Assembly: GCA_012861695.1 (NCBI GenBank)
Contig: JAAOOA010001125.1
Location: 1 to 64,000 of the forward strand
Origin: Trematomus loennbergii
Taxonomy: Eukaryota; Chordata; Actinopteri; Perciformes; Nototheniidae
DNA: 64,000 nt
Direction of reading: 5' to 3'
Part shown: positions 18,601-24,600 of the stretch, piece after piece
How positions within the stretch are numbered: position 1 is the stretch's first letter
Layout: every line of letters starts with the position of its first letter
Notes under the pieces: model-generated
Database searches by the model: none
Told to the model about the DNA's origin: nothing
The model's input: only the letters and a program-made list of their open reading frames with translations
Program-made: the position numbers and the translations under genes

Positions 18601-21600
18601 TACCGGTTCTTCATACATCCTGTCATGAACCAAATACTGAGTTTTATCTAAAAATGTTGGCTTTTTTCAAGAAATCTCAAAATTCTGACTTTCTCAAAAT
18701 TCTGACTTTTTCTCAAAATCAGAAAATTATGACTTTTTCTCAAAATCTCAACATTATGACTTTTTTCTCAAAAATCGGACTTTTTCTCAAAATCTGAACA
18801 TTCTGACTTTTTCTGAATACTTAAAAATGTTAATAATCACTGGTCCCCGGCTTGAGCTTCAATCTCAGGATCCATGTATCTCTGATCCTCTCCAGAATGG
18901 AAGTAGTCATCACATACAGAGCATCAACTAGTTCCTGAACAGTGTCCTTCACATGCTGATATCCAAGAGAGGGAGTTACACAGTCACAAGATGGAGGAAT
19001 AGAAAGCAGTATTCAATGTTTACTTCAGATTAGCCCACGTCAGAAATGAGCATGCTTGTCATATGTCTATCTCCATAGAGGCTGAATCATCATGTTAATC
19101 ACATAGCTATCATATGCCTCAAACAGTCCTGATGCTCTTCTAGGTAATCATACATCCTGTCATGTTCACAGCTACAGTTGGGATACCTTTGTTAGCATGT
19201 GGACTCTGATATTGGAAGAGGACATTCAGGATTTTCCCAACAGTTATAAAAAACAAAAACATGTGAATTCGATGCATAACTTTGCTTTTTTCCTTTCTTT
19301 CTAGTGAGCTGTTCGGTGCAAGCAACACTGGTATAAACTTTGAGAAGTATGACGATATTCCCGTGGAGGCTACAGGAAGCAACTGCCCGCCTCACATCGA
19401 CACCGTGAGTCTTTAACGCTGTGATGCATGCATTCCCAACAACAAAATAATATCAAGTGCTAGAACCAACTTCCAGTGTTGATTAGGGAGGCAGACAGTG
19501 TGCCACACATTTAAGGGTAGGCTGAAGACTTTCCTCCTTAGTTCGGACATCCTCATGAACCCTTCATTTTATGGAATCATTGTATTGCAGTGGCCAAAAT
19601 CCTAACCGTTTGTCTCATAACTCCAAATGTTCCTTTTCTTGGCCACATGGACAGCTTGGGAACTAGTGTCAGACTCGCAGTAAAAAAAGCCACTGGATAT
19701 TTTGATTGCTCCTTGAATGTTTTACTTCCAAAAACAATATCACTTTGTAACGTGAACTTCAGCAGCAGATCCTAATAATCAGTTTGACTGAGAATAAGGC
19801 GGCGTGTCAATGCTGGAGGTGCTGCTAACTGTATTTGTCATTGTTATGTCCCCATTCATTTATCTTGTCATGTTACTATATTCTCAGATATGTTGGTTGT
19901 TTTTACATCATCATTCATGTTTGTTGATTTGTGAAGCCCTGTGAGACAATTGGGCGAATTGAACTGAATTCCATTTCCCTAATTTGGGTTTTAATACAAC
20001 ATTGTGAGTCTCTTAAACTGACTGTCTGTGTATCCCGTAGTTCCACGATGTTGACATGGGTGAGATTATCATGGCAAACATCGCCATGAGTCGTTACGAT
20101 CACCCCACCCCGGTCCAGAAGCACGCCATCCCCATCATCAAGTCCAAGAGAGACCTGATGGCCTGCGCACAGACTGGTGAGTCCTTTATTATTAATGATA
20201 TGCCTTTTTTATAAAACAAGTACCAATGCGTATAAATGAATTAATCTCAAACGGAGGATACGCTAAAAGCCTATTTCCATTTGCAGTCCCCGAGCAGAGA
20301 CATGCATAACAATCAGAAAACACTACGTTGTCTCGATCATATTCACTTATATTTGCTAAATATTCTCAGTGCTTGTATTTGAGAGCTTAAAGTAGATCAA
20401 TAAGTATTCCTTTTCTTCATATAAAACACTTAATAGACATAAATTAGCATTTTTAGCCACCTAACTGTGGTTTGGTTATAATATGCACTTGATCTACTGA
20501 GATGGATATGATATTCGAGCTCCCATCAGTGTTGCCGTCATTTAAAGTTAAGTTTCTGTACGATCATTTTCAAAATCAATATCGTGAGTCAGATTGTTGG
20601 AGCATTCATGGAGTAGCCATTTGATAAGTGGAACCGTGTGCCGATACTGATCATGAAGTCATTCACTTTCAGGATCCTGCTCACACTGTCCGGGTTATCT
20701 TTCTCATTTATGATCTTACCTGGCTCACATTGGTTTCATATTTAAATGTAAGGTAGTCTAAATAACTACATATATATAACCTCCTTTCAGGCTCTGGTAA
20801 AACGGCTGCCTTCCTGCTGCCGGTGCTGAGCCAGATCTACAGCGAAGGACCCGGAGAAGCTCTCGCAGCATCGAAGAACGGAGGACAGGTACTTCAGAAA
20901 CAGTGTTTGGAAATAACCTGTATATATTTGTGGATTGTTTGTTCTAAAATATGTTGTTTTGTGCTCAGGATAGTGGAAGGTATGGCCGCCGTAAGCAGTA
21001 CCCCCTCGCCATGATCCTGGCACCCACCAGAGAGCTGGCCTCACAGATCTACGACGAGGCGAGGAAGGTGAGGAAATCATTTTGAATTTAATGGATTTAC
21101 TTTATCCCTTTTTATTTCTATGTTTTTAGTTTGCCTACCGCTCACGTGTTTCCCCTTCTTTCTATGTTTTTAGTTTGCCTACCGCTCACGTGTTTCCCCT
21201 TCTTTCTACGTTTTTAGTTTGCCTACCGCTCACGTGTTTCCCCTTCTTTCTACGTTTTTAGTTGCCTACCGCTCACGTGTTTCCCCTTCTTTCTACGTTT
21301 TTAGTTTGCCTACCGCTCACGTGTTTCCCCTTCTTTCTATGTTTTTAGTTTGCCTACCGCTCACGTGTTTCCCCTTCTTTCTACGTTTTTAGTTTGCCTA
21401 CCGCTCAAGTGTTTCCCCTTCTTTCTACGTTTTTAGTTTGCCTACCGCTCACGTGTTTCCCCTTCTTTCTACGTTTTTAGTTTGCCTACCGCTCAAGTGT
21501 TTCCCCTTCTTTCTACGTTTTTTGTTTGCCTACCGCTCACGTGTTTCCCCTTCTTTCTACGTTTTTAGTTTGCCTACCGCTCAAGTGTTTCCCCTTCTTT

Positions 21601-24600
21601 CTATGTTTTTAGTTTGCCTACCGCTCACGTGTTTCCCCTTCTTTCTACGTTTTTTGTTTGCCTACCGCTCAAGTGTTTCCCCTTCTTTCTACGTTTTTTG
21701 TTTGCCTACCGCTCAAGTGTTTCCCCTTCTTTCTACGTTTTTAGTTTGCCTACCGCTCACGTGTTTCCCCTTCTTTCTACGTTTTTAGTTTGCCTACCGC
21801 TCAAGTGTTTCCCCTTCTTTCTACGTTTTTTGTTTGCCTACCGCTCACGTGTTTCCCCTTCTTTCTACGTTTTTAGTTTGCCTACCGCTCAAGTGTTTCC
21901 CCTTCTTTCTATGTTTTTAGTTTGCCTACCGCTCACGTGTTTCCCCTTCTTTCTACGTTTTTAGTTTGCCTACCGCTCAAGTGTTTCCCCTTCTTTCTAC
22001 GTTTTTAGTTTGCCTACCGCTCAAGTGTTTCCCCTTCTTTCTATGTTTTTAGTTTGCCTACCGCTCAAGTGTTTCCCCTTCTTTCTACGTTTTTAGTTTG
22101 CCTACCGCTCAAGTGTTTCCCCTTCTTTCTACGTTTTTAGTTTGCCTACCGCTCAAGTGTTTCCCCTTCTTTCTATGTTTTTAGTTTGCCTACCGCTCAC
22201 GTGTTTCCCCTTCTTTCTACGTTTTTTTGTTTGCCTACCGCTCACGTGTTTCCCCTTCTTTCTATGTTTTTAGTTTGCCTACCGCTCACGTGTTTCCCCT
22301 TCTTTCTACGTTTTTAGTTTGCCTACCGCTCAAGTGTTTCCCCTTCTTTCTACGTTTTTAGTTTGCCTACCGCTCAAGTGTTTCCCCTTCTTTCTATGTT
22401 TTTAGTTTGCCTACCGCTCAAGTGTTTCCCCTTCTTTCTACGTTTTTAGTTTGCCTACCGCTCAAGTGTTTCCCCTTCTTTCTATGTTTTTAGTTTGCCT
22501 ACCGCTCAAGTGTTTCCCCTTCTTTCTATGTTTTTAGTTTGCTACCGCTCACGTGTTTCCCTTCTTTCTACGTTTTTTGTTTGCCTACCGCTCAAGTGTT
22601 TCCCCTTCTTTCTACGTTTTTAGTTTGCCTACCGCTCACGTGTTTCCCCTTCTTTCTACGTTTTTAGTTTGCCTACCGCTCACTGTTTCCCCTTCTTTCT
22701 ACGTTTTTAGTTTGCCTACCGCTCAAGTGTTTCCCTTCTTTCTACGTTTTTAGTTTGCCTACCGCTCAAGTGTTTCCCCTTCTTTCTACGTTTTTAGTTT
22801 GCCTACCGCTCAAGTGTTTCCCCTTCTTTCTATGTTTTTAGTTTGCCTACCGCTCAAGTGTTTCCCCTTCTTTCTATGTTTTAGTTTGCCTACCGCTCAC
22901 GTGTTTCCCCTTCTTTCTACGTTTTAGTTTGCCTACCGCTCAAGTGTTTCCCCTTCTTTCTACGTTTTTAGTTTGCCTACCGCTCAAGTGTTTCCCCTTC
23001 TTTCTATGTTTTTAGTTTGCCTACCGCTCACGTGTTTCCCTTCTTTCTACGTTTTTAGTTTGCCTACCGCTCACGTGTTTCCCCTTCTTTCTATGTTTTT
23101 AGTTTGCCTACCGCTCACGTGTTCCCCTTCTTTCTATGTTTTTAGTTTGCCTACCGCTCACGTGTTTCCCCTTCTTTCTACGTTTTTAGTTTGCCTACCG
23201 CTCACGCGTTTCCCCTTCTTTCTATGTTTTTAGTTTACCTACCGCTCACGTGTTTCCCCTTCTTTCTACGTTTTTAGTTTGCCTACCGCTCACGTGTGCG
23301 CTGCTGCGTTGTGTACGGAGGCGCTGACATCGGACAGCAGATCAGAGAGCTGGAGCGCGGCTGCCATCTGGTGGTGGCGACACCCGGACGCCTCGTGGAC
23401 ATGTTGGAGCGCGGAAAGATCGGACTGGACTATTGCAGGTAAATACAACACAGAAAACCACATTTTTAAAGGTCTCCTATCAAGCCAAGGACCCAGAATC
23501 AGCACTTTAGTAACAGGAAGTGAAATAGAGGGATGTCTTAAATGCATGATCTGTTTGGTATATTGAGCAAAACACATCATAGACATGTTTTTTATATTTC
23601 TATACATCTGAGACCTCTAATATATGCCTAAAAATACTATAATAGGAGACCTTTAAAAACAGTTTTTCTCCTGATGGGAATCACCTGGTTCAAATGTGTA
23701 TGAGAGGTTTTGATATTAAATATGAAATGTGTGTGTGCAGCTTCCTGGTCCTGGACGAGGCTGATCGTATGTTGGACATGGGTTTCGAGCCCCAGATCAG
23801 ACGCATCGTGGAGCAGGACACCATGCCGCCTAAAGGCATCCGACAGACCATGATGTTCAGCGCCACCTTCCCCAAGGAGATCCAGGTACGGTGGACATTC
23901 AACTATACATAGAATATTATGATCAATATCAGTTGATAATAATGTGAAGAAAGTCAGAAACTTGTAGTTGCTTTCAACACAAGCTAGTCAAATGCTAACA
24001 TAACTCTTGACTCATATGTTAAGCTAAGATGCTTGTAAATAAAACCCTGAGCGTGGAAATGTTTCCCTCAGAGAGACGCAACCATTCCCTCCACACTCAT
24101 CCTTTCTCTTTGTTTATCAGATCCTTGCGCGTGACTTCCTGGAGGATTACATCTTCCTGGCAGTGGGCCGTGTCGGCTCCACTTCAGAAAACATCACCCA
24201 GAAGGTGGTGTGGGTCGAGGAGAACGACAAGAGGTCCTTCCTGCTCGACTTGCTCAATGCTACAGGTGAGAAAAGCATGCGACTATATGTAAACACGTGG
24301 GTTTTTGCCTCCCTAAGAAGTTCCGTTTAGCCTCTAATGTATAACTTGTGTCGTAATATCGAGCTAATATTGACTTTGAAAACATATCTGCTAACAAGTG
24401 TACAGTAAGAGATAAAACACTTTATATTAAGGTACACCTATTCACCATCAAGTAGTTGTTATTTAACATATTAGAGTCAAACTACTAGCTTATTTGTGAT
24501 GAACAAGACTTCACTTTAAAATAGGGAACATGTTCCGAGTTAGAAATACCACATTTTGAGTTATTTTGACAGAATTAACACTTAGTAGTTCACCTGGTTA

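Follow-up and report, generated by a model that had tools for sequence, protein, structure and literature searches.

How does a spliceosome find the correct 3' splice site when that site stands in a long row of its own copies? Experiments on the choice among like acceptors usually employ a small number of engineered copies. A contig of the fish Trematomus loennbergii (JAAOOA010001125.1, here C1125) presents a natural case in its first 64,000 nucleotides (C1125:1-64000, the window): in a DDX3X-type RNA helicase gene, the junction between intron 11 and exon 12 has become a 44-bp minisatellite with about fifty like acceptors, and a second copy of the region on another contig, C188, has 24. From these two arrays the rules at stake in acceptor choice (distance, exon context and order of transcription) might be read in the RNA of one fish. 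The locus could also show a splice boundary lengthened by repeats without loss of the gene, and whether repeat length tunes the dose of DDX3 helicase, whose gene is generally held to be important for life in vertebrates. The explanation that we favour, and consider probable, is an unstable and largely tolerated minisatellite in which the last acceptor is chosen through its exon context.

The gene and the elements around the junction are placed in the window as follows.

9613-30277, plus strand: DDX3X-type RNA helicase gene, start to stop codon (in-frame exon model, phmmer, protein identities).
20969-21067, plus strand: exon 11, ending in ...GCGAGGAAG and followed by a gtgagg donor (exon model).
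21068-23277, plus strand: intron 11, 2,210 bp, filled nearly throughout by the array (exon model).
21115-23297, plus strand: the 44-bp minisatellite, with a unit made of 20 nt of exon 12, a polypyrimidine tract and TTTTTAG (Tandem Repeats Finder (TRF), unit table).
23276-23277, plus strand: the real acceptor AG of exon 12 (unit table, exon model, translations).
23278-23438, plus strand: exon 12, 161 nt, of which the first 20 nt are repeated (exon model).

TRF describes the array as 49.8 copies of a 44-bp unit with 96% matches, extending 20 nt into exon 12. With its many imperfect head-to-tail copies of a unit within the range of about 10-100 bp, the array is a minisatellite, and its unit, which holds the 3' end of the intron, the AG and the 5' end of the exon, is a duplicated splice junction. 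An initial annotation of this DNA had placed the exon 12 boundary at 23,278, inside a minisatellite that spans the acceptor, and the exon model, TRF and the unit table all agree with it. Its figure of 49 copies needs correction as a count of acceptors: anchor-based splitting yields 50 acceptor positions, the first in an incomplete unit, then 48 more decoy units, and finally the real one. Of these, 44 have AG, namely 43 decoys (the annotation had estimated about 43) and the real acceptor, 23,277, and the remaining six (units 10, 13, 14, 17, 26 and 34) have TG in its place. The unit does not, as had been claimed, carry seven codons of exon 12; it has 20 nt only, six codons and two bases, and the seventh codon reads GTT, not GTG.

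21068-21129, plus strand: 62-bp stretch that was probably the ancestral intron 11; it contains a branch-like motif of its own, TTTAC, and runs to the AG of the first copy (sequence, motif scan).
21496-22594, plus strand: stretch that holds all six units without AG (unit table).

Because the exon 11 donor is only 62 bp from the first acceptor, and intron 11 of a DDX3 paralogue on contig C55 has 89 bp and no array, a short ancestral intron 11 is likely, much as the annotation's estimate of about 62 bp had it. Genome searches covered the 1.21-Gb assembly of 3,566 contigs. A 231-base query recovered the array unit on C1125 and C188 only, together with the paralogous exon on C55 (34 matches, three candidates scored); this search skips very common words, and rarity of the unit in the genome is not proved by it. 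The unit also contains CACGTG, and the array might then act through the DNA itself, with E-boxes clustered in the intron, a reading that we find scarcely credible. There are 24 CACGTG motifs in the array against six in the rest of the window, but the motif comes along with the unit, and 24 further copies read CAAGTG, so it has not been kept.

The gene that holds the array is complete. Its 20 coding exons (2,247 nt, 748 amino acids) stay in frame, and GT-AG ends are found throughout its 19 introns, in an exon model drawn by hand from the sequence without a transcript. In a phmmer comparison, residues 168-684 of the 748 match human DDX3X (chain 9e2c_A) with an E-value of 1.8e-273, and on this long match the predicted protein is classed as a DDX3X-type DEAD-box helicase. 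Among the 120 matches listed of 7,984, the top full-length identities belong to notothenioid fishes (Pogonophryne, 99% over 100%; Dissostichus, 100% over 95%), and the best bit score to a longer hake protein (84% over 74%). Two smaller features of the gene may be recorded here. The sequence at the exon 4 acceptor, 13138-13143, is CAGCAG, a possible NAGNAG tandem acceptor. Exon 15 (24958-25002) has 45 nt in frame that encode residues absent from human DDX3X in the alignment, and is possibly an optional fish exon.

What would the use of a decoy do to the message? The message was translated for each acceptor position in turn, beginning with the unit next to the exon.

23205-23248, plus strand: nearest decoy unit (unit 49), AG at 23232-23233, whose use leads to a stop in exon 13 (unit table, translation).

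Not one of the 43 AG decoys would yield the complete protein; each leads to a premature stop. The stops that the initial annotation had worked out by hand for one, two and three units upstream, and for copies further up, are all confirmed: the reading frame from unit 49 ends in exon 13, that from unit 48 in exon 12, and that from the third unit upstream at the real acceptor's own TAG, with all 41 AG decoys among units 1-47 meeting a stop within the array. Eighteen of the 43 have a frame offset of zero, yet a stop intervenes. The distance from these stops to the last exon junction is 801 to 3,091 nt, and nonsense-mediated decay is usually triggered beyond 50-55 nt, so the decoy messages are expected targets of decay. 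That every one of the 43 AG decoys would place a stop at least 801 nt upstream of the last junction also suits a second reading, which we regard as unlikely though not far-fetched: the array would be a splicing rheostat, in which decoys bind U2AF and U2 and divert or stall the splicing of intron 11, yielding decay targets or a detained intron, with helicase dose following the number of competent decoys.

The decoys are recognisable as acceptors. Splice sites were scored with a small matrix drawn from the gene's own sites (18 other acceptors and 19 donors) rather than a trained predictor. The score of the real acceptor, 10.72, is equalled or exceeded by 41 of the 43 AG decoys, so the module from -20 to +3 is equal across the array. 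In all, 68 of the 4,079 AG sites scored in the window reach that of the real acceptor, namely the 41 decoys, the real site and 26 others, ten of which are acceptors of the DDX3X-type gene and were also training sites of the matrix.

Upstream of this module the units differ. The branch-site consensus is yUnAy, and the real acceptor has one candidate.

23245-23249, plus strand: candidate branch site CTCAC of the real acceptor, with its A at 23248, 29 nt before the G of the AG (motif scan, consensus only).

This CTCAC match consists of repeated exon 12 codons (CGC TCA CGT). A shared C-to-A change at the start of 24 units turns it into CTCAA, and the same number of acceptor positions, 24 of 50, have no yUnAy match 15-45 nt upstream. 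With a competent decoy defined as one that has both AG and the consensus motif CTCAY, and with the first unit and the real one set aside, the 48 decoys of the window divide into 21 with both, 21 with AG only, three with the motif only and three with neither. In the CTCAAG copies (21406-22990) the C-to-A change also adds an extra AG directly after the presumed branch A, and converts CACGTG to CAAGTG.

Downstream of the AG, the real acceptor stands apart. Over the next 60 nt it has 47% purines and four purine trimers, against 23-25% and no trimers for the five nearest decoys and a median of 25% and one trimer for units 1-40 (units 41-44 are outside the listing); all 18 other acceptors of the gene have at least 42% purines and at least three trimers. 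Over 100 nt the real acceptor has 52% purines and 11 trimers, and the lowest of the other acceptors 46% and six. The real acceptor can thus be distinguished from its decoys by its exon. Purine-rich exon sequence has a role in exon recognition, and we infer that the exon sequence after the real AG may be the working cue for acceptor choice. The earlier description of a choice of the last of many equal acceptors therefore holds for the -20 to +3 module, where 41 of 43 decoys match the real site, but does not extend to branch motif, AG or downstream purines, given the 24 positions without yUnAy, the six without AG and the difference of 47% to 23-25%.

Two other properties of the units were considered. 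RNA structure as a selector was sought by folding four 88-nt stretches, and z-scores of -1.11, 0.01, -0.91 and -0.34 show no clear difference from shuffled sequences, giving no evidence that local structure hides the decoys. Donor-like sites that recur in the unit, and might make decoy exons of it, score 2.02-2.75 at best; this is the bottom of the range of the gene's 19 real donors, which score 2.28 to 11.56 when each is left out in turn.

Does the array occur elsewhere with a different length? C188 carries a second copy of the region on the opposite strand, where the chained alignment of 37,756 bases shows 255 mismatches and 314 gap openings; the total counts chained pieces of at least 300 bases, some of the array and a 418-base piece at 60.7-61.1 kb among them. 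The mismatch rate is 0.68% over the 37.8 kb aligned, indels apart, and single aligned pieces are 90-99% identical with gaps counted. Fifteen of the 20 coding exons are identical. Divergence is uneven, with no mismatches in the bins from 4 to 12 kb and about 2% at 18-20 kb; between 4000 and 20560 it jumps as if by a haplotype switch or gene conversion. Relative to the window, exons 11, 18 and 20 each lack one base in C188, and these deletions could be read errors or decay.

The array of C188 has 24 units (TRF, 23.8 copies, against 49.8 in the window), with AG in all of them and no C-to-A or TG variants. The initial annotation had proposed comparing array length between individuals and related species; the comparison made here is between two copies within one assembly, with 50 and 24 units. 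It bears on the possibility that the copy number is an assembly error and the true array short, which we consider very improbable. Long arrays are error-prone, and ten of the 49 units after the first are off 44 bp by one base, some perhaps through read errors. The array is nevertheless present on two contigs with different unit composition, with 17 distinct sequences among the 49 units of the window and neither variant among the 24 of C188, which argues against a one-off artefact and does not fit simple collapse or single-allele stutter.

The two copies may be alleles or duplicates. Colinearity with C188 runs from position 1 of the window to 46,122, with breaks, and no colinear match past 46,122 was found in C188 sequence 223,000-312,999. 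A control family, PF04997, matched three contigs (one of them below the curated cut-off) with no near-identical pair listed; judged from this one family, the assembly looks mostly collapsed, so that one would not by default expect a pair, and the second copy deserves notice. Both observations suit a reading in which the window gene arose by a recent segmental duplication and is under relaxed constraint, its long array tolerated since the other copy works. We hold this to be decidedly unlikely: it is the window copy that is open, most coding exons are identical and the three exon deletions of C188 may be read errors, and C188 has the acceptor array too. C1125, moreover, has 156,414 bp and its first bases lie in a 14-bp minisatellite (84 copies), as could be the case for an unpurged second haplotype. 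We lean towards a second haplotype rather than a duplicate.

The two arrays also differ in the quality of their decoys. Twenty of 22 decoys are competent in C188, against 21 of 48 in the window, and the surplus of the long array corresponds in number to impaired units. This comparison involves two arrays only and a consensus motif, and is a lead. In the two C188 units that lack the motif, the loss is due to 1-bp deletions; should these be read errors, the count there is 22. Of the three substitutions shared among units, two fall on branch or AG positions (P = 0.061 for random placement, a value that rests on seven positions chosen by the analyst). Both observations favour the idea that array and dose are coupled. 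In its stronger form, which we find quite improbable, selection would act on splicing competence and not on length: competent decoys would be held near twenty (21 and 20) while units with a broken motif or AG doubled the length, and the array would be a copy-number-dependent brake on DDX3 helicase. There is a precedent in passages of two papers (PMC12017769, PMC8706089), in which the sites of decoy exons in retained introns, such as OGT intron 4 and SF3B1 intron 4, are described as recognised, rarely used and able to restrain splicing, and decoy splice sites reportedly cause introns of OGT and other genes to be retained. Those decoy exons have a donor as well as an acceptor, however, whereas the donor-like sites of the fish unit are at the floor of the gene's donors. 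The coupling of array and dose is further weakened in that it draws on a single comparison of two arrays, by unit counts, and the shared C-to-A change may simply have ridden the expansion. A search in both copies for selection against the nearest decoys gave a negative result: AG and branch motif are intact in the five nearest of each array, with nothing to suggest a purge of the most dangerous ones.

The tolerated minisatellite would have arisen when a 44-bp segment over the junction of intron 11 and exon 12 was tandemly duplicated and then expanded as an unstable repeat. The unit would be a self-contained acceptor, with CTCAC supplied by exon codons and followed by the pyrimidine tract and AG. 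Each duplication would have turned the upstream copy into intron, since the frame is kept from the downstream copy alone, as is the case in today's array. The last acceptor adjoins exon-like, purine-bearing sequence with a donor at normal distance, and would be favoured by exon recognition involving SR proteins, U2AF and U1 across the exon. Decoys would mostly be bypassed, their use probably low and wasted; the small share used would run into a stop codon and presumably be removed by nonsense-mediated decay, and array length would then be near neutral within limits. Consistent with such tolerance, the gene remains open over 748 codons, and array length differs between copies (49.8 and 23.8) while two upstream arrays do not (72 bp, 10.9 and 10.9 copies; 33 bp, 16.3 and 16.3 copies).

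Several points weigh against a tolerated repeat. Correct use of the last acceptor is an assumption drawn from the open frame. Some misuse is to be expected, because the nearest decoys lengthen exon 12 from 161 to only 205, 249 or 293 nt, sizes that exon definition tolerates. Over 100 nt after the AG, the nearest decoy is intermediate, with 35% purines and three trimers. The near-equal numbers of competent decoys, 21 and 20 despite 50 and 24 units, hint at a limit unlike a neutral array. Length change is also not special to the 44-bp array, because a 42-bp repeat (4.3 copies) and a TG repeat (103 copies) of the window are not matched, at the same score cut, by any repeat in the compared C188 stretch. 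The 14-bp minisatellite at the contig edge (1-1171) has 84 copies against 173 in C188, the window copy being cut by the contig end. The proposal that the 44-bp array is unusually unstable was accordingly rejected.

How does the locus compare with known systems? The human CBS 844ins68 variant is likewise a tandem duplication of an intron-exon junction, and a passage in PMC2630376 states that the more distal site is strongly favoured and the mRNA normal; the passage writes 'donor', whereas the title of the cited Romano 2002 says 3' splice site. CBS 844ins68 has two copies, is no minisatellite, and has a regulation known by experiment, whereas the fish array has 50 and is known from sequence. The same source names a human CBS 31-bp variable number tandem repeat (VNTR), c.1444_1467+7(16_21), with 16-21 copies and, by its name, 24 exon and seven intron bases, which the title of Lievers 2001 ties to reduced CBS activity. 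Here the likeness is a minisatellite unit across an exon-intron border, though the CBS repeat spans a donor with fewer copies and the fish array an acceptor. TERT VNTR6-1 (38 bp), a variable minisatellite treated in a paper on TERT splicing (PMC11830802), is likewise intronic, but the fish unit is the gene's own splice site. No coding exon boundary with dozens of arrayed acceptors was among the matches listed in a literature search that covered titles and the starts of abstracts, with most subscription papers outside it, and absence from print is not claimed. Compared with these systems, the fish locus is new in having its repeat at an acceptor, in the number of copies, in a putative branch site taken from codons, and in two arrays of one assembly that differ two-fold in length.

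Further downstream in the window, just past the end of colinearity with C188, begins a stretch of about 14 kb (46420-60309) that is flanked by long inverted repeats, with nine arm pairs that are 91-99% complementary. Open reading frames on its minus strand (49740-52544) are, we take it, reverse-transcriptase-like.

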